A DNA stretch of 64,000 nt from Bdellovibrio sp. ZAP7. Lineage in GTDB: Bacteria; Bdellovibrionota; FAC87; UBA2466. The DNA is taken from the NCBI GenBank assembly GCA_945878405.1, contig CAMCTJ010000005.1:86350-150349 (forward strand). The letters run 5' to 3'. The position numbers were made by a program, and so were the translations under genes. The notes below the pieces were generated by a model. That model saw only the letters and a program-made list of their open reading frames with translations. It did no database searches and was not told where the DNA came from. The first letter of the stretch is position 1, and the number at the start of each line of letters is the position of its first letter. Below are positions 7,546 through 57,914 of this stretch, piece after piece.

Positions 7546-10500
7546 ATGTTCCAAACCCCTCTTTTCATTTTCGCTCTTTTATTCGGCTTTTCTGATAGCA
7601 CTTTGGCCGAGAGTTCCATTGAAAAATTGCAGTCCACTGCCGCTCAATCCATCAAAGAAGCAGCTGGTTTATCGCAAGCTCAGATTGCAGTGAGTTTGAT
7701 TCAATCCAAGTTTTTTCCAGATGCTGAAGGGAATCCACCGGTTTGGAGAGTGGTTTCAGATCCGAACTCTTCCGACAAACCGAGAATCGAGGCCACAGAA
7801 TTTAATGCACAAGGGACCATAGTAAATTTAGCTTCGAGTTGGGGAAACTCAGATTATATTGTAGATCAAAGTGGGCTTGCAGCTCTTAAAAAAACTTCCT
7901 CTCTCTCGGATCCCGGCCTGGAACAAGATGGATTCATTGGCATTCCCAATTTGTCTGGATTGGCTAGTGCTGAGAAAGATACTTATTTCGGGAGCGCGAC
8001 TTCCAGATTCCCCGCTTCAACTAATGCAATTCAGAAAGTACCCATTACCTTTAAGAGCCTCTCGACTGGAACAGGAGCGTTAGCACTTTTAAATGTGCAA
8101 GTAGGTTCGATGAATGTGGAGATACCGGTGCCAATTAATTCATCCGGACTTTGGTATCAGGAAGCGTATATTAAGGCGGTGAATGCAGGGGCAGATGACC
8201 TCTTTGGGTACAGCAATTCTATTTCCGGGGACACGATTATCGTTGGAGCGTATGAAGAAGACTCAAACCAAACAACGATTACCAACGGCGCTACAGCAAG
8301 TTCGAACAATTCCAATTCTAACTCTGGTGCCGCATATGTCTTTAAGCGTACGGGTTCGGTATGGGCCCAAGAAGCCTATTTAAAAGCTTCGGATAATGAT
8401 AATGGGGATATTTTTGGATATAGCACTTCCATTTCTGGCAACACAATTGTAATCGGCGCTCCTTGGGAAGACTCAAACCAAACAACGATTACCAACGGCG
8501 CTACAGCAAGTTCGAACAATTCCAATTCTAACTCTGGTGCCGCATATGTCTTTAAGCGTACGGGTTCGGTATGGGCCCAAGAAGCTTATTTAAAAGCATC
8601 AAATGCTGGAAACGGTGACCAATTAGGCATTTCTTTAGGAATATCCGGGGATACCATCGTGGTGGGAGCTTATGGAGAAAGCAGCAACCAAACTACTATT
8701 ACCAACGCTGCTTCTGTTAGTAGTGATAGTAGCCTACTGGGTAGCGGCGCCGCTTATGTATTTAAGCGCGCGAATTCCACATGGGCCCAAGAAGCTTATT
8801 TAAAAGCATCAAACGCTGGAGCTGACGACGTATTTGGTTATCTCTCTCGTATTTCAGGTGACACCATAGTCATTGGTTCACAACGAGAGGACTCCAGTCA
8901 AACCAATATCACTAACGGTGCTACAGCAAGTAGTAATAATACGAGTACTGATAGCGGCGCCGCTTATGTCTTTAAGCGTGCGGGTTCGGTATGGGCCCAA
9001 GAAGCCTATTTAAAAGCTTCGAATAATGACGCGGGTGATTTGTTTGGAGTTGCGGTATCGATTTCCGGGGACACGATTGTCGTTGGATCGTACGGAGAAT
9101 ACTCAAACCAAACAAGTATCACTAACGGCACGACGGCAAGCTCGAACAATTCCAATTCTAACTCTGGTGCCGCTTATGTCTTTAAGCGTACGGGTTCTAC
9201 ATGGGCCCAAGAAGCCTATTTAAAGGCACCTAACAGTAACGCTAACGATCGATTCGGTAATTCTGTAGATGTTTCTGACGATACAATCGTGATAGGGGCG
9301 TGGTTAGAGGATTCTTCTCAAACGACAATCACTAACGGCACGACGGCAAGCTCGAACAATTCCAATTCTAACTCTGGTGCCGCTTATGTCTTTAAGCGTA
9401 CGGGTTCTACATGGGCCCAAGAAGCTTATTTAAAGGCCTCTAATGCCGGTGCCAGTGACTTTGTGGGTTTCCCAAGTGCTATTTCCGGGGATACGATCGT
9501 CTTGGGGGCTCATGGTGAAAGCTCCTCCCAAACCACGATTACCAATGGCCAAAGTGCGAGTAGCGATAATTCGAAGTCGCGAAGCGGCGCGGTCTACGTG
9601 TTTCGACGGCGAGAAGTAGAGAGCACTCCGTCCATTAGCTCCGTAACCCCTTCTACTGCATTTTGTCCGGGGAATAGCATTATTATTTTCGGCAGCGGCT
9701 TTATGAAAGACGCAACGGTGAAAGTGGGAGATCAACCGTGTCTCTCTAAAACGACACAAGGGCCGAATGAGATTGTGTGTGAGTTGCCACGCCAGCCTGT
9801 GGCGATCCCGGGAGATTTGTTAAACATCACGGTGACGAATCCGAATGGAAGTGTTTCGACATTAGATGATAGTTTTTCCTGCGATGGCTGGTATCAGGAG
9901 GCGTATATTAAGGCGCCTAATGCGGGGGCGGGGGATCGCTTCGGAGAAGGCATCAGCCTTTCAGAAGACACACTGGTGGTTGGCGCTCCACGAGAGAGTT
10001 CTAATCAAACCACAGTCACGAATGGAACGACTGGCAGCGCAGATAATAGCAAGGCATCCAGTGGTGCTGCATATATCTTTAGTAGAAACGGTTCAATTTG
10101 GTCGCCGCAAGCTTACCTAAAGGCACCGAACGCAGATGCAAACGATATTTTCGGAACTTCTACATCCATTTCGGGTGATACGATCGTGGTGGGAGCTAAC
10201 TACGAAGACAGTAACCAAACCACAATCACGAATGGAACGACTGGCAGCGCAGATAATAGCAAGGCATCCAGTGGTGCAGCTTATGTCTTCAGGAGAACTA
10301 ACTCGGTTTGGGCACAAGAAGCCTACTTAAAGGCATCCAATGCAGATTCACCAGATCAATTTGGCGATTCCGGATCTGTTGCCATCTCAGGGGACACAAT
10401 CGTCGTAGGAGCTAACCAAGAATCGAGCAATCAAACAACTATTACTAATGGTACGACTGCCAGTGCAGATAATTCCAAAATGAATAGTGGAGCAGCTTAC

Positions 10501-37708: not shown

Positions 37709-39158
37709 CGCCTACGAATACCTTAGGAATGCTTCTGAGAAGAATCAGGCAATCAAAGAAAAGGGACCAGTGCTTCACATAATACAAATCGTAGTCGACC
37801 CTAGATTGCAATTGCTCCGTGGTTTCGATCAGGCCTCGATGGCCGTTTACTTGAGCCCAACCTGTCATCCCCGGTTTAATTTTGTGTCTTAAGCTATACC
37901 CTTGTATGACATTTCGATATTTCTCTGAGTGCTCCCAAGCAAAAGGTCGAGGCCCGACGAGACTCATTTCTCCCCGAATGACATTTAATAATTGAGGCAG
38001 CTCATCTAACGAATATTTTCTCAACCATTTTCCGAGCCGAGTGATTCTAGGGTCGTTTTTTTCAGCGGGCATAGGATAATTCTCTGCAGGCTGCACATAC
38101 ATGCTTCTGAATTTCCAAATATCGAGAGGCTTCGTTCCCAGCCCCACTCGTTTTTGACGAAAAAAGATGGGGCCCGGTGAAGACAGTTTGATGAGGGAGG
38201 CAATTATCAAAAAGACTGGAGAAAGTACAAGTAGGATTGTAATGCCCAAAACGAGATCCATGGTTCTTTTTAGGAACCGTTTTCCACCATAAAAGGGAGT
38301 GTCGCGAAGAGTAATCACCGGAATACCCGAGAGTTCTCCAAGCGATGAATTCATCAGATCAAACTGAAAAATATCAGGTACAAAAGCTACTGAAGCCGTA
38401 GTGTCTGACAAGAGAGTCATGAGCTCAAGAATTCTTTCTTCTTGTCGCATGGGCAAAGTAATTATTACGAGATCAATTTCTTCGTTTTCGATGTGTTGAA
38501 CCAGGGCCTGTGGAGAATCCAAAAATGTTGCTCCAATAGGCACTGGGATCCTCTGCTCTTTTCTGTAGTCAAAAAAACCAACGACGTTTAAATCAGAAAT
38601 AATGGATGACCGGCTTCTATTGTAGAGTTCTGTACCGATAGGAGTTACTCCCACAACTACGGCGCGTAGTCTTACACTGTTGAGCAAGGGACGGGTTTTT
38701 TGTAAGCCCAGTGAAGTTATCCAAAGACTCAAGGGTATGGTGAAAGCACTGAATATCCATTGATGGGGAGAAAAAGGACCCTGGCCAAGATGGTTTGCAA
38801 AAAGCTGAAAATAAACAAAAAGAGTCAGGCACCATCCCAGAGCTAATTTAAAAAGAACCTTAAAACTTTCCCGCCAAGTGGCATCATTAGTAGAGGAAAT
38901 GAAAGTTCTAAAACTCAAAAATGAGATCGAAAAGAAACAGGCCCAATCCATAAAGAACGTGGGACTGTTAAAGGTTTTCCATCCGGAAAGACTCACAGAG
39001 CCAAAAAAAGACGCGAAGAGAGCAAAGCCTAAGGATTCATTACGCTTTTGAAATGACCAAGGAGCTGAGTGGGTAAGGTTTGCTCGTCGAGTCGTTAAGT
39101 TCCCACCAGGCAGAAGTGTGGAAACTTTGGGTTTTGTTTTTTTTTCGGGTGAAGACAT
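37692..39158 (-). CDS. Second polyprenyl-phosphate sugar-1-phosphate transferase
   Basis: 488 residues. The N-terminal half has four membrane segments and a Rossmann-like domain (VVVGVTPIGTELYNR). The catalytic C-terminus shows SPGPIFFRQKRVG, IWKFRSMY, YSLDELPQLLNV, MSLVGPRP and PGMTGWAQVNGHRG. It should start lipid-linked repeat-unit assembly, as its paralogue at 1618-3036 does; the two are similar mainly in the catalytic domain. Genes are ordered transferase then flippase on the minus strand. The N-terminal 40 residues are hydrophilic, Lys/Thr-rich and unusually long for the family. Confidence 0.9.
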   Translation of the reverse strand: MSSPEKKTKPKVSTLLPGGNLTTRRANLTHSAPWSFQKRNESLGFALFASFFGSVSLSGWKTFNSPTFFMDWACFFSISFLSFRTFISSTNDATWRESFKVLFKLALGWCLTLFVYFQLFANHLGQGPFSPHQWIFSAFTIPLSLWITSLGLQKTRPLLNSVRLRAVVVGVTPIGTELYNRSRSSIISDLNVVGFFDYRKEQRIPVPIGATFLDSPQALVQHIENEEIDLVIITLPMRQEERILELMTLLSDTTASVAFVPDIFQFDLMNSSLGELSGIPVITLRDTPFYGGKRFLKRTMDLVLGITILLVLSPVFLIIASLIKLSSPGPIFFRQKRVGLGTKPLDIWKFRSMYVQPAENYPMPAEKNDPRITRLGKWLRKYSLDELPQLLNVIRGEMSLVGPRPFAWEHSEKYRNVIQGYSLRHKIKPGMTGWAQVNGHRGLIETTEQLQSRVDYDLYYVKHWSLFFDCLILLRSIPKVFVGDEHAF

Positions 39159-53183: not shown

Positions 53184-53846
53184 ATGCAAAAGCGCCCACT
53201 CACATTGATCGTAGCTTCCTGCATTTTTCTCTTTTCGCCAATTAGCCTTATCAATGAGTTTCTCCTTGGGAAAGCTATCAATTCGGTGGATTGGCTTCTC
53301 AGTGGCCTTTTACCTCTAGGCCTTTGTGTCGGGCTCTTAAGAGTCAATCGTATTGCCTGGTATACTCTGTTTGGCTTTGTCTTTTTGTGGGGAGTTCGAG
53401 ATCTTCACGGCCTACAAAACACGTCTGGGAACCTCATTCAGGTTCTATTGAATCTCTTCATTTACACGCTCAGTTTAACCTATTTTATAAATCCTAGAAT
53501 TAAGCGCCTCTATTTTGATCCGAGGCTCCAATGGTGGAGAACAAAAATAAGATACGAAACCCATGGACCCGCTATTATTGAAGTAGGAACCAAAACTCAT
53601 TATCCCACTTTAAAGAATATCTCTGAGGGGGGATGTTTTCTGGAGACGCCGCATACCCAGGAGCAATCTGAACAGATTCTTATCACGATCCCACTTCCTA
53701 GCCCGGTCCCAAGATCGAGCCTTAAATTGATAGGAGAGGTTCGGTGGGTTTCCTCCCAACCCGAAAAAATGGGAATGGGAATTCAATTTCTTTCCCTCTC
53801 TAAAGAGGACCGGATTAATCTGAAAAAATTCGTTGCCCAACATTAG
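53184..53846 (+). CDS. Membrane protein with C-terminal PilZ domain
   Basis: 220 residues: three or four membrane segments (about 7-100), then a PilZ domain (about 118-218). The c-di-GMP motifs are present as RTKIR (RxxxR) and NISEGG (D/NxSxxG). So it is a likely membrane c-di-GMP effector. A perfect TATAAT lies at 53172-53177, 6 bases before the ATG, pointing to a leaderless transcript, though the -35 region is weak. It overlaps the region just before kamD, which may be co-transcribed; no functional link to lysine metabolism is evident. Confidence 0.82.
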   Translation: MQKRPLTLIVASCIFLFSPISLINEFLLGKAINSVDWLLSGLLPLGLCVGLLRVNRIAWYTLFGFVFLWGVRDLHGLQNTSGNLIQVLLNLFIYTLSLTYFINPRIKRLYFDPRLQWWRTKIRYETHGPAIIEVGTKTHYPTLKNISEGGCFLETPHTQEQSEQILITIPLPSPVPRSSLKLIGEVRWVSSQPEKMGMGIQFLSLSKEDRINLKKFVAQH

Positions 53847-53856
53847 TCCCCAAGAG

Positions 53857-55446
53857 ATGATGGCAACCATGTATTCCAAAGAGCTTCCTTTAAATGAACG
53901 AAAAATAGCTCGCTGTCGAAAGATTGCCGCTGAAATTGGCAATGAGGTGGCATCCCTCATTCACCAGAATTCTACAGTAGGAACCGAACGGGGAATCCTT
54001 AGAATGCTTGGCTTGAATGGCGCTTTAAAACACCAGGGACTCCAATATCCCGTAGCCAACTTGATAGTCGACCAACTGAAAGAAAATAATCGTCTTCAAG
54101 AAGGAGCCCTTTTTTGGGTTGCGAATGCGCTTTTGGCCGAAAATATCCAGATGGACGTTCTAGAGAAGGGAATAGCAGGACGGACAATCAACATCGGAAA
54201 AGTAAAACCACAAGATACCAAAAAGACGAGAAAGTTTGCTCAGGAATTAGCTGAAAAAGCCTACCGCAATCTCAAGACCTATCGAGAAAAAAGAAAAAAG
54301 ATCATGAGCCACCAGAAGGATCCGCTTCGGGAAAAGCGGCCTCTCAAGTATGTGATTGTGGCTACTGGAAATATTTTCGAAGATGTCACTCAAGCCAAGA
54401 GTGCGGTTCATGATGGGGCGGACATTATTGCAGTGATTAGAAGCACTGCTCAATCTCTTCTCGATTATGTTCCTCATGGAACAACGACCGAAGGATTTGG
54501 CGGGACCTATGCAACCCAAGGAAATTTCAGGGTCATGCGAGAGGCCCTAGATGCGATGGGCCCCGAGGTAAAGCGGTATATTCGTCTTACCAATTATTGT
54601 TCCGGCCTCTGCATGAGCGAAATTGCCGCCTTGGCGAGTCTCGAGGGTTTAGATTGTCTTTTAAATGATGCCATGTATGGAATTTTATTTCGTGACATTA
54701 ATCCTCGTCGTACGCTCATCGACCAGCATTTTTCTCGATTGATTTGTTCAGTTTCGGGAATCTGGATTATGACTGGGGAAGATAATTACATGAAGACAAC
54801 TGACGCCGTTAAAGCAGGCGATCAGGTGCTAGCTTCCCAATTCATCAACGAAGTGTCCGCTCTCAATGCAGGAATGAAGCCAGAGCAAATGTCTATAGGA
54901 CATGCGATGGAAATGGATCCTGCCTATGAAAAAGTAATACTCATGGAAATTGCGAGAGCTCAAATGACGAGGCAGATTTTTCCCAAAGCTCCTCTTAAAT
55001 ATATGTGCGCCACAAAATATAAGAGTGGGGATATTTTTACGGCTCATGCATTAGATACAGTTTTCAATCTTATCGGTTCAATGACCAATCAGGGTGTTTT
55101 ACTTCTTGGGATGCCAACTGAGGCCATTCATACTCCCTGGATGCAAGATCGCAGCGTTGCTTTACGTAATATCAATTATGTTCTCAATGGAAGCTTGGGG
55201 CTCTCTCAGGAGTTTGGATTTAACACCGAGGGGTTTATCGCAAAGTTTTCCCAGAAAGTTTTGGATGATTGTTTAACATTGTTGGAAAAAATTCATCGAG
55301 ATGGCTTCTTTAAAGCAATTGAGAAACGCGTTTTTGCTGATGTCTCAAGAACCATTAACGGAGGAAAGGGAGCTGACGGCGTTTTTGAGATTGATCGTGA
55401 TGTTTACCTGAATCCATTTTTTAAACTCATGGGGAGTAAGATTTAG
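53857..55446 (+). CDS. kamD: D-lysine 5,6-aminomutase alpha subunit
   Basis: 529 residues. This large subunit (TIM-barrel type) holds substrate, PLP and adenosylcobalamin with KamE, moving the terminal amino group of D-lysine or L-beta-lysine from C6 to C5. Recognisable segments are RGILRMLGLNG, IVATGNIFEDVTQAKSAVHD, GADIIAVIRSTAQSLLDYVP, TTTEGFGGTYATQGNFR, LTNYCSGLCMSEIAALA and the C-terminal NGGKGADGVFEIDRDVYLNP. Several starts are possible (TTG 53833, ATG 53857, ATG 53860, ATG 53869); 53857 with AAGAG before it is chosen. It starts just after the PilZ gene and is followed 2 bases later by kamE. Confidence 0.93.
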   Translation: MMATMYSKELPLNERKIARCRKIAAEIGNEVASLIHQNSTVGTERGILRMLGLNGALKHQGLQYPVANLIVDQLKENNRLQEGALFWVANALLAENIQMDVLEKGIAGRTINIGKVKPQDTKKTRKFAQELAEKAYRNLKTYREKRKKIMSHQKDPLREKRPLKYVIVATGNIFEDVTQAKSAVHDGADIIAVIRSTAQSLLDYVPHGTTTEGFGGTYATQGNFRVMREALDAMGPEVKRYIRLTNYCSGLCMSEIAALASLEGLDCLLNDAMYGILFRDINPRRTLIDQHFSRLICSVSGIWIMTGEDNYMKTTDAVKAGDQVLASQFINEVSALNAGMKPEQMSIGHAMEMDPAYEKVILMEIARAQMTRQIFPKAPLKYMCATKYKSGDIFTAHALDTVFNLIGSMTNQGVLLLGMPTEAIHTPWMQDRSVALRNINYVLNGSLGLSQEFGFNTEGFIAKFSQKVLDDCLTLLEKIHRDGFFKAIEKRVFADVSRTINGGKGADGVFEIDRDVYLNPFFKLMGSKI

Positions 55447-55448
55447 CT

Positions 55449-56210
55449 ATGGCTGAGATAAATCTACACCAGCTACTTCCCTATGGAGATACGACTCAGG
55501 ACGGTGCTGTTCAGTTGAGTTTTACTCTTCCTGTTGAGCCATCTGCAAAGGCTAGAGAAGCGGCCACTCAATTGGTTCGTAGTTGGGGATTTTTTGATGT
55601 GAAGATTGCTCACATGTCTTCGATTGGTGTGGGATATGCATTTTTTGTGGTGATGGCCCGTACTGAAAAGAGTATCGACTATCCCAAGGTTGAAGCGCCT
55701 CAATTAGATCTTCAAAAACGAGATTATAAAGAAATCGATAAGAAGATTCTTCAGGAAGTGAAGCGGCCCATTCGCTTGGTCGGTGCAACTACGGGATTCG
55801 ATGCTCACACGGTAGGTTTAGATGCCATTTTAAACATGAAGGGATTTGATGGCGATATTGGGCTTGAGCGGTATAAAGGGTTCAAAGTGGTGAATATGGG
55901 GAGTCAGGTTCCTACCGAAGAGCTAATTGATCGCGCAGTTAAAGAGAATGCAGATGCCATTCTTCTTTCAAAAGTTGTTTCTCAAAAAGACATACATATT
56001 CATGACATGCGTGATCTGATTGCTCAGCTGAAAAAAAGAGGGCTCGAGAACAGGTTTGTCTTAGTGGTTGGGGGGCCTCGAGTGACTCATAAGCTTGCCT
56101 TAGAGCTGGGATATGATGCAGGATTTACCATTGGGAGTCGTCCCAGTGACGTTGCAAATTTCTTGTACGAGAAAATGGTCGAGAAAAAAAATGGCAAAAC
56201 CAAAAAATAA
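55449..56210 (+). CDS. kamE: D-lysine 5,6-aminomutase beta (cobalamin-binding) subunit
   Basis: 253 residues. The B12-binding motif DxHxxG appears as GFDAHTVGLDAI with cobalt-ligand His120. Lys131, 11 residues later, matches the spacing of the PLP-binding Lys in clostridial KamE (His133/Lys144). The Rossmann fold ends in VVGGPRVTHKLALELGYDAG. An N-terminal dimerisation part (ATQLVRSWGFFDVKIAHM) is normal. The 3' end overlaps the MoxR gene by 20 bases, so the aminomutase and the ATPase are made from one transcript. Other lysine-fermentation genes (kamA, kdd, kce) are not in the window. Confidence 0.94.
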   Translation: MAEINLHQLLPYGDTTQDGAVQLSFTLPVEPSAKAREAATQLVRSWGFFDVKIAHMSSIGVGYAFFVVMARTEKSIDYPKVEAPQLDLQKRDYKEIDKKILQEVKRPIRLVGATTGFDAHTVGLDAILNMKGFDGDIGLERYKGFKVVNMGSQVPTEELIDRAVKENADAILLSKVVSQKDIHIHDMRDLIAQLKKRGLENRFVLVVGGPRVTHKLALELGYDAGFTIGSRPSDVANFLYEKMVEKKNGKTKK

Positions 56211-57039
56211 AATTGTAGGTCGACAAAAGGAATTAAAGGCACTGAAAAGGGCCGTTAGCCTCAATCGAAATGTTTTAATCGAAGGACCTGTTGGAGTTGG
56301 AAAAACCTTTTTAGTTCGTGAGGTCTTAGAAGAACTGGATCGTGATTTTGAAAGAATTGATGGGGATACTCGCTATACGGAAAGTAAACTCACTGGCTGG
56401 TTTGATCCGCCACTTGTATTAAAAAAAGGATACGCCGCGAGCTGTTTTATTGACGGACCATTGGTGTCTGCCATGAAAAAGGGGAAGATCCTTTTTATTA
56501 ATGAGTTAAACCGAATGCCTGAAGCAGTTCAAAATATTCTGTTACCTGCGATGGATGAGCGGCACATTACGATTCCAAAATTAGGTCGAATTGATGCAAA
56601 ACCTGGTTTTCTTGTAGTAGCAACTCAGAATCCACGTGAATTCACCGCGACTCATGCGGTTTCGGAAGCTTTATTAGATCGATTTGAGATGCTCCCTCTC
56701 CACTATCAATCTCGTGAGGAAGAGCTGCAGATCGCCTCTCATCAAACTCAGGGAAAGGTGAGTACCGAATTGCTAGAACGAGCAGTAGATATTGTGCGTG
56801 CCACACGGAATCACCCCTCGATCAAAAGAGGCGCGAGTATTCGAGCTGCTTTAGCTATCATCACTTTGGTTAACGGGGGGATGGATTTGGAAGAGGCTTG
56901 TTTGATGGCTTTGCCTTCTCGTATTGAGATGATCTCCTCAGATGAGGATGCCCTTCAAATTATTCGTGAGCTTGTTTCTACAGATACCTTTTCGGAGTTT
57001 AAGGAAAAAAAAAGCCCGCAAAAGTCATCAAGGGGCTAG
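56191..57039 (+). CDS. MoxR-family AAA+ ATPase linked to the aminomutase
   Basis: 282 residues: Walker A GPVGVGKT (32-39), Walker B KGKILFINELNRMP, sensor 1 VVATQNPREF and sensor 2 SIRAALAIITLV. MoxR ATPases work with VWA proteins to remodel or activate enzymes (CbbQ-CbbO on Rubisco, RavA-ViaA). ATG 56191 lies in the end of kamE. The 0 frame ends at 57039, but over a run of nine A (57005-57013) the -1 frame continues open into the VWA gene, so a 574-residue fusion is possible. Roles in reloading cofactor or removing damaged B12 from KamDE are inferred from context. Confidence 0.88.
   Translation: MAKPKNKIVGRQKELKALKRAVSLNRNVLIEGPVGVGKTFLVREVLEELDRDFERIDGDTRYTESKLTGWFDPPLVLKKGYAASCFIDGPLVSAMKKGKILFINELNRMPEAVQNILLPAMDERHITIPKLGRIDAKPGFLVVATQNPREFTATHAVSEALLDRFEMLPLHYQSREEELQIASHQTQGKVSTELLERAVDIVRATRNHPSIKRGASIRAALAIITLVNGGMDLEEACLMALPSRIEMISSDEDALQIIRELVSTDTFSEFKEKKSPQKSSRG
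57005..57014 (+). other. Possible programmed -1 frameshift site (A9G)
   Basis: Nine consecutive A followed by G at the end of the MoxR frame (codons GAA AAA AAA AGC). A -1 slip reads AAG CCC GCA and enters the open VWA frame, which has no stop from 57003 on. A Shine-Dalgarno-like GGAG (56994-56997) lies about 7-10 bases upstream, the spacing known to stimulate -1 slipping in dnaX. A homopolymer sequencing error would look the same. Confidence 0.5.
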
Positions 57040-57149
57040 ATCCTAACGAACTTGGCCGTTTCGTCGAAGTATTTCTCCCTCCCGAGCTTGCCTCTCAGAC
57101 AGTTTTTGAGGGGTGGGAATCTGGCAGTGAAAATCGCCAATCTGAGCTC

Positions 57150-57914
57150 ATGCGGCAGCTTTATTTTAAGCAGCTTCATACTTCACAATCAGATAAGAAA
57201 AGCGATCAAGCCTTGGTTTCGTTGATCGTTGAGCATGCCAAGAAAGTAGTTGCTCATCCCGCTCGCCCCACTCATCTCAAAACAGAATCGTTTCTTGAAA
57301 AGCCCGATGCTGACTTAGCTATTGAAGAGACGATTGAGGAGAGTCCCATCGTGGAGGGGCCAGAAAATCTTTTAGTGCAGTATCAACAGGAAAAGCCTTT
57401 TTCGTGTGTGGTGATTCTCGATACAAGTTCGTCCATGTCGGGAGATAAGCATTTACTTGCCAGTATTGCTGTTGCGGTCCTGGTTTTGGAAGTGGTTTCA
57501 AAAGATAATGCCTTGGTTGTTTTTGCCTCGGAAGCAAAAACAATAAAAAAGTTAGGGGTTTTAGAAAAGCCTGAGGAAACCATTTTAAGGTTTTTGAAAC
57601 ACCAGCCCAAGGGTTTTACGAATCTGTCGGCAGGGCTTGAAGAAGGATTAAAACAATTAAAATCTCACGCTGCTCGCAAACGAAAAGTCGGCCTGATTGC
57701 CACTGATGGCCGCTCGACAGAAGGGGGAAACCCACTCAAAGTAGCTTCTCAATTTGATTTTTTGGTAGTGCTTCATCTTTGTGGCGCGGGCAGTGATCTT
57801 GAAGCTTCGCAAGAAATTGCTCAAGCTGGAAAAGGGGTTTGTTTACAGGTCGAAAAGTTTGAGGATCTCCCGCAACGTTTATATGAATCTTTGAGAATGT
57901 TATCTCGGAGATAA
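57150..57914 (+). CDS. VWA-domain protein, partner of the MoxR ATPase
   Basis: 254 residues from the first ATG. The MIDAS metal site is complete: DTSSSMSG, Thr in FTNLSAGLEEGL and Asp in ATDGRS. Its frame is open 49 codons further back to 57003, encoding protein-like sequence (GLDPNELGRFVEVFLPPELA) but with no ATG, GTG or TTG. So either translation begins at 57150 with a very weak Shine-Dalgarno, or ribosomes enter from the MoxR frame by -1 slipping at 57005-57014. MoxR-VWA pairs act as complexes; ATPase and MIDAS are both intact here. It ends the kamDE-moxR-VWA unit. Confidence 0.85.
   Translation: MRQLYFKQLHTSQSDKKSDQALVSLIVEHAKKVVAHPARPTHLKTESFLEKPDADLAIEETIEESPIVEGPENLLVQYQQEKPFSCVVILDTSSSMSGDKHLLASIAVAVLVLEVVSKDNALVVFASEAKTIKKLGVLEKPEETILRFLKHQPKGFTNLSAGLEEGLKQLKSHAARKRKVGLIATDGRSTEGGNPLKVASQFDFLVVLHLCGAGSDLEASQEIAQAGKGVCLQVEKFEDLPQRLYESLRMLSRR

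Follow-up and report, generated by a model that had tools for sequence, protein, structure and literature searches.

The window analysed here comprises 64,000 nucleotides of a Bdellovibrionota metagenome-assembled genome (MAG; 2.24 Mb in 24 contigs) and carries on its forward strand the gene order kamD, kamE, moxR and a VWA frame. kamD (53833..55446) encodes the alpha subunit of D-lysine 5,6-aminomutase (PF09043, 690.8 bits; NCBIfam NF052384, 692 bits against a cut-off of 600), and kamE (55449..56210) encodes the B12-binding beta subunit of lysine 5,6-aminomutase (PF16554 and PF02310; NCBIfam NF052385, 322 bits against a cut-off of 280). The start of moxR overlaps the 3′ end of kamE by 20 nt. 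In the zero frame moxR (56191..57039, ATG to TAG) yields a MoxR AAA+ ATPase of 282 amino acids. The AAA_3 and AAA_5 profiles (PF07728, PF07726) both score above cut-off, Walker A (GPVGVGKT) and Walker B (ILFINE) are found in the translation, and its closest relatives among solved structures are midasin, NorQ and CbbQ. The extension in the −1 frame (57012..57914, 300 codons) is an open frame that comprises a linker, a helical segment and a VWA domain, as seen from PF00092 above cut-off and from an alignment with 17 relatives. Within the VWA domain (57408..57872, PF00092) lies the MIDAS motif DTSSS (57420-57434), of which D136, S138 and S140 are invariant in this alignment. Among PDB structures, the model of the VWA part resembles the VWA domain of NorD, the MIDAS domain of midasin and further VWA folds. 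With PF00092, the invariant DxSxS and the fold match to NorD, the locus has the MIDAS-bearing VWA domain expected of a MoxR–VWA pair of the NorQD/CbbQO type. Identity as a chlD chelatase subunit is rejected, as the BchD-ChlD/Co-chelatase models score far under their cut-offs (TIGR02031, 27 bits against 499.55; TIGR02442, 25 bits against 779.45).

The two frames meet at a run of nine A's (57005..57013), which is read in the zero frame as GAA AAA AAA AGC and is followed by G57014. The VWA frame is −1 relative to MoxR at this junction, and in the zero frame the short MoxR terminates at a TAG (57037..57039) 23 nt 3′ of the run. The earlier note had described a VWA frame of 57003-57914 with its only standard start at 57150, and a fusion of 574 residues beside the MoxR of 282. 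Both the coordinates and the arithmetic are correct: the frame has no stop from 57003 to 57914, its first ATG is at 57150 with in-frame TTG and GTG only further downstream, and a −1 slip on A_AAA_AAA (57006-57012) would join 274 and 300 residues. Exact A9 occurs 42 times on both strands of the 2.24-Mb genome, and among the 11 A9G sites this alone lies where one long open frame gives way to another. The sole other A9 run within the window is at 39137-39145 on the reverse strand. Further A9–A11 runs are located inside long uninterrupted ORFs of the same genome (L209, L214, L215, L217, L218), where polymerase slippage would yield truncated products. In standard annotation the MoxR would pass as complete and the VWA would be given a false internal start.

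The segment 5′ of this first standard start (57015..57149) was claimed to encode protein, and the comparison with relatives agrees. In genus g6, the best-sampled in the family, the 42 codons between the run and ATG57150 show 134, 96 and 345 differences at the first, second and third codon positions, and pN/pS is 0.26. In the window's own genus, represented by three sequences, pN/pS is 0.70, so the constraint there is either weaker or less well measured. The segment also contains a VFxPPEL motif that is conserved in the alignment with 17 relatives. When the VWA part is modelled (pLDDT 85), ATG57150 falls on residue 46, in the middle of a predicted helix spanning residues 29-55. Most loci have no ATG, GTG or TTG in the VWA frame until at least 14 codons past the run, the largest distance being 140.

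A search of 59 relatives returned 10 family-level orthologues and 7 more distant copies, and in each of the 17 the junction has A9 or A10 and the VWA is −1 to MoxR. The survey was then extended to 369 genomes of the phylum and to a scan of GTDB contigs, which used one short peptide motif and may miss other phyla. Named relatives are Bdellovibrionales, Bacteriovoracaceae and Oligoflexia MAGs, which places the window in Bdellovibrionota. After removal of duplicates, inclusion of two loci whose contigs break off shortly after the VWA begins (G014 in L136, G350 in L221) and omission of L165, which has N in its sequence, we count 55 distinct −1 loci in Bdellovibrionota: 26 with A9, 27 with A10, one with A11 and one with A6. 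A run of at least nine A's is thus present at the MoxR/VWA junction in 54 of the 55, across several families. Outside the junction, nine runs of at least nine A's occur in 370 kb (both strands of 28 loci with flanks), which corresponds to 0.0005 expected per 40 nt. The runs differ among loci in length and phase, and the −1 relation is kept in all of them; the zero-frame stop usually follows 0–3 codons 3′ of the run, with a median of one codon over all loci. The comparison of orthologous loci suggested by the earlier note therefore finds the A-run and the two-frame layout retained in nearly all bacterial relatives. A conserved slippery run at the frame junction and a coding −1 frame, the features expected of programmed −1 slippage, are both found.

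A few bacterial copies deviate. L149 (G327:C79:3500-6500) has A8 and a +1 relation of MoxR and VWA, unlike all relatives, and is either an assembly error or a true variant. L158 (G339:C93) is the sole bacterial in-frame MoxR-VWA fusion seen; it has no run, evolves fast and is the second copy of its genome, the other being an A11 slip copy. In L009 and L038 (G002) the VWA frame is broken near its C-terminal end, by assembly error or decay.

Homologues are also found in archaea. Six Thermoplasmata loci show A9 and the −1 layout as in bacteria, and in 13 other Thermoplasmata the homologue is one uninterrupted in-frame MoxR-VWA ORF without an A-run. These fused homologues indicate that a MoxR-VWA fusion is nothing unusual in this family, and they are a natural control for the slip loci. 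From a fused gene no separate short MoxR is made, which means that mixed rings are not required in every organism. One archaeal copy (L168, G622) has the VWA in the −1 frame and no A-run at the junction; four in-frame fusions (L047, L052, L054, L057) have a class-III aminotransferase and an M55 D-aminopeptidase in their neighbourhood; and the fused L048 contains masked bases. An archaeal fused protein modelled without an alignment reached a pLDDT of 35, too poor to use. The slip in bacteria and archaea may be ancestral or convergent, the tree of both groups being unrooted, with long branches and based on a quick search.

From comparative sequence, we consider it very probable that programmed −1 slippage on the nine A's lets this one locus give two proteins, so that standard reading would produce the short MoxR and a slip the longer MoxR-VWA from the same start. 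Slip-made MoxR and MoxR-VWA beside a B12 enzyme were the central proposal of the earlier note, and more than 50 loci, the fused archaeal homologues and the coding pre-start segment now stand behind it. Two separate proteins, with the VWA translated from its own internal start and coupled to the MoxR stop, would fit the −1 overlaps common in operons and the GTG or ATG found 3–17 codons past the run in some loci. Such a start is very unlikely here, as the long distance to the first start codon in most loci, the conserved motif in the coding segment upstream, the position of ATG57150 inside a predicted helix and the fused archaeal homologues all speak against it, and coupling leaves the conserved A-run unexplained. 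For most loci we reject it on the start distance and the coding pre-start segment. We give still less weight to a contingency locus, in which DNA replication slippage would switch between split and fused forms from cell to cell. A run of 9–10 A's is mutable and L149, with A8 and +1, may be such a variant, but not one A-run bacterial locus is fused in frame, although gain or loss of one A should give some, and the sole bacterial in-frame fusion (L158) is without a run. Hardly credible at all is a homopolymer error of sequencing or assembly in a single fused gene. The source is a MAG, homopolymers are error-prone and one relative (L149) has A8 and a different frame, yet the survey rules this out: over 50 loci, sequenced in many different projects, are all −1, have A9, A10 or A11 in matching phases and share the early zero-frame stop.

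Which machine slips is a separate question. We think it probable, though less firmly than the slippage itself, that the slip would be due mainly to insertion of an extra A by RNA polymerase. This is favoured by the near-constant length of 9–10 A's, the lack of enriched stimulators and the presence of two Lys tRNAs, tRNA-Lys(UUU) and tRNA-Lys(CUU), in the window's genome, as for dnaX of Thermus thermophilus, in which a run of nine makes RNA polymerase slip and two Lys tRNAs are present (PMC5009743). The homopolymer of about nine or more that characterises a transcriptional slippage site is found here. Transcriptional slippage is efficient in vivo at nine As or Ts, the RNA:DNA hybrid being 9–10 bp long (PMC5009743), and insertions become exponentially more frequent as the run lengthens (PMC5574713). 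Ribosomal −1 frameshifting on A_AAA_AAR would give the same two products, and we regard it as possible but doubtful as the main mode. Each run of at least nine A's holds a zero-frame A_AAA_AAR or A_AAA_AAC, one locus (L078, with A6) carries a canonical ribosomal signal, and A-runs alone shift frame well in reporters, an A9 cassette giving 40% frameshifting (PMC3711429). Against this, seven bases would suffice for the ribosome, yet 54 of the 55 sites have at least nine A's; neither SD-like sequences (mean z −0.05) nor downstream hairpins (mean z +0.22) are enriched across the sites; and the genome has its two Lys tRNAs. The earlier note had pointed to a GGAG upstream of the run as in dnaX. The motif is indeed there (56994-56997), but its role as a dnaX-like stimulator is rejected, since it is absent in relatives and not conserved. 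With no downstream hairpin at the window site (z +1.09) either, a dnaX-like ribosomal signal is not supported for this gene.

An SD-like stimulator together with a hairpin, as in a dnaX-type ribosomal site, is found only at L078. Here the junction has A6 only (7701-7706; CGA AAA AAG ACC TGA, with A_AAA_AAG), and L127 is the same sequence. An SD-like GGGAGG lies upstream (−9.8 kcal/mol), and the hairpin has −33.9 kcal/mol (z −2.53). From its sequence, L078 looks like a ribosomal frameshift site that took over; coming from one high-G+C genome, it is a lead rather than proof.

MoxR proteins act as hexamers with a VWA partner. For NorQD, the data are consistent with one NorD per six NorQ (PMC9976466), and a twisting motion has been proposed as the means by which the complex remodels its client (PMC13036017). 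For the locus described here we lean towards a single ring in which both products are mixed and VWA arms are few. The arms would stay few because the fusion would be made in limited amounts against many copies of MoxR, and slippage would set the ratio of MoxR to MoxR-VWA.

More distant members of the phylum have the order kdd-kamD-kamE-moxR//vwa. KamD is found in 57 genomes: 40 of them match the two-frame pair (MoxR//VWA), 10 carry KamC, the MutS-like component of the KamBC reactivase, and none has both. Without correction for ancestry, the exclusion of KamC and MoxR//VWA has a Fisher p of 4.5e-7, and the association of MoxR//VWA with KamD a p of 1e-26. The KamC profile has no match at 1e-40 in any MoxR//VWA genome, and MoxR//VWA itself lacks the homology to KamC by which a KamBC reactivase is recognised. 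In the remaining seven KamD genomes, KamD is on contigs that end close by. Two of these (L136, L221) show MoxR, A10 and the start of the VWA, and counting both raises the KamD genomes with MoxR//VWA to 42; L220 and L223 have a cut MoxR, and in L219, L222 and L224 the contig ends before it. Every KamDE in the phylum with enough visible neighbourhood thus has MoxR//VWA or, in 10 genomes, KamBC, and never both. The simplest reading of this mutual exclusion is that MoxR//VWA replaces KamBC. In the KamDE-linked genomes MoxR//VWA could then act as an ATP-driven activase or reactivase of lysine 5,6-aminomutase that stands in for KamBC, and we judge it, on balance, a plausible candidate for this role. 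KamDE cannot be its sole client: 17 genomes have MoxR//VWA without a KamD match, and in 11 of them, which form one clade, the neighbours are an amino-acid permease and DUF455; this points to other clients or uses. In family f13 (L092, L097, L099, L068, L087), MoxR//VWA with A9 or A10 and without KamD is adjoined by an amino-acid permease and a DUF455 protein of ~660 aa. In family f8 (L059 9656-16352 and relatives), ETF alpha/beta and a CCG-domain Fe-S oxidoreductase are conserved downstream of the kam cluster and are followed by dapB/dapA homologues.

Taken together, we tentatively suggest a phylum-wide AAA+ machine with its ratio set by transcriptional slippage on A9/A10, which would replace KamBC as reactivase of the B12/PLP enzyme lysine 5,6-aminomutase. 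One lineage would have swapped to a ribosomal signal, and the archaeal slip would have been swapped for, or have arisen from, gene fusion. The locus would represent a deeply conserved case of slippage making two forms of a ring motor. The A9/A10 slip, the one ribosomal-type site and the plain fusions offer natural controls for the number of VWA arms per ring, and the association with KamDE offers a testable alternative lysine 5,6-aminomutase reactivase in Bdellovibrionota. In the literature search we found no report of slippage making two forms in the MoxR-VWA family.

Several known systems share parts of this arrangement. In the chlD-type chelatases, the longer product carries a VWA domain in ChlD. 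The likeness to these genes drawn by the earlier note is fair, as frameshifting in Mg/Co-chelatase AAA+ genes is published (PMC5009743, PMC9227772); there, as proposed here, frameshifting at an A-rich A_AAA_AAR lets bacteria and archaea make a longer form beside the short AAA+ protein (PMC9227772, PMC5009743, PMC3711429). In contrast, the AAA+ part here is of the MoxR/CbbQ-NorQ class and not ChlI/ChlD, its neighbour is KamDE, and most sites are A9–A10 without downstream structure, whereas chlD signals are usually structured downstream (PMC9227772). The KamB/KamC reactivase of lysine 5,6-aminomutase (NCBIfam NF052386, NF052383), found in the KamDE genomes without MoxR//VWA, is likewise an ATPase whose genes adjoin kamDE, but KamC is MutS-like and unrelated to MoxR. 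To our knowledge no frameshift is known for KamB or KamC. dnaX of Thermus thermophilus shares the run of nine A/T, the two Lys tRNAs and products with a common N terminus (PMC5009743), but its standard frame leads to the long form, while here it leads to the short one. NorQ/NorD, CbbQ/CbbO and RavA/ViaA also combine a MoxR AAA+ with a MIDAS-type VWA partner (PMC9976466, PMC13036017); in these systems the two are separate proteins, whereas the VWA described here would be a slip-dependent C-terminal extension of MoxR itself. In tssM1 of Citrobacter rodentium, an unrelated protein with a run of 11 A's, poly-A is likewise followed by a stop, and transcriptional slippage gives a short and a full-length form, both of which are needed in a ratio (PMC4256274).
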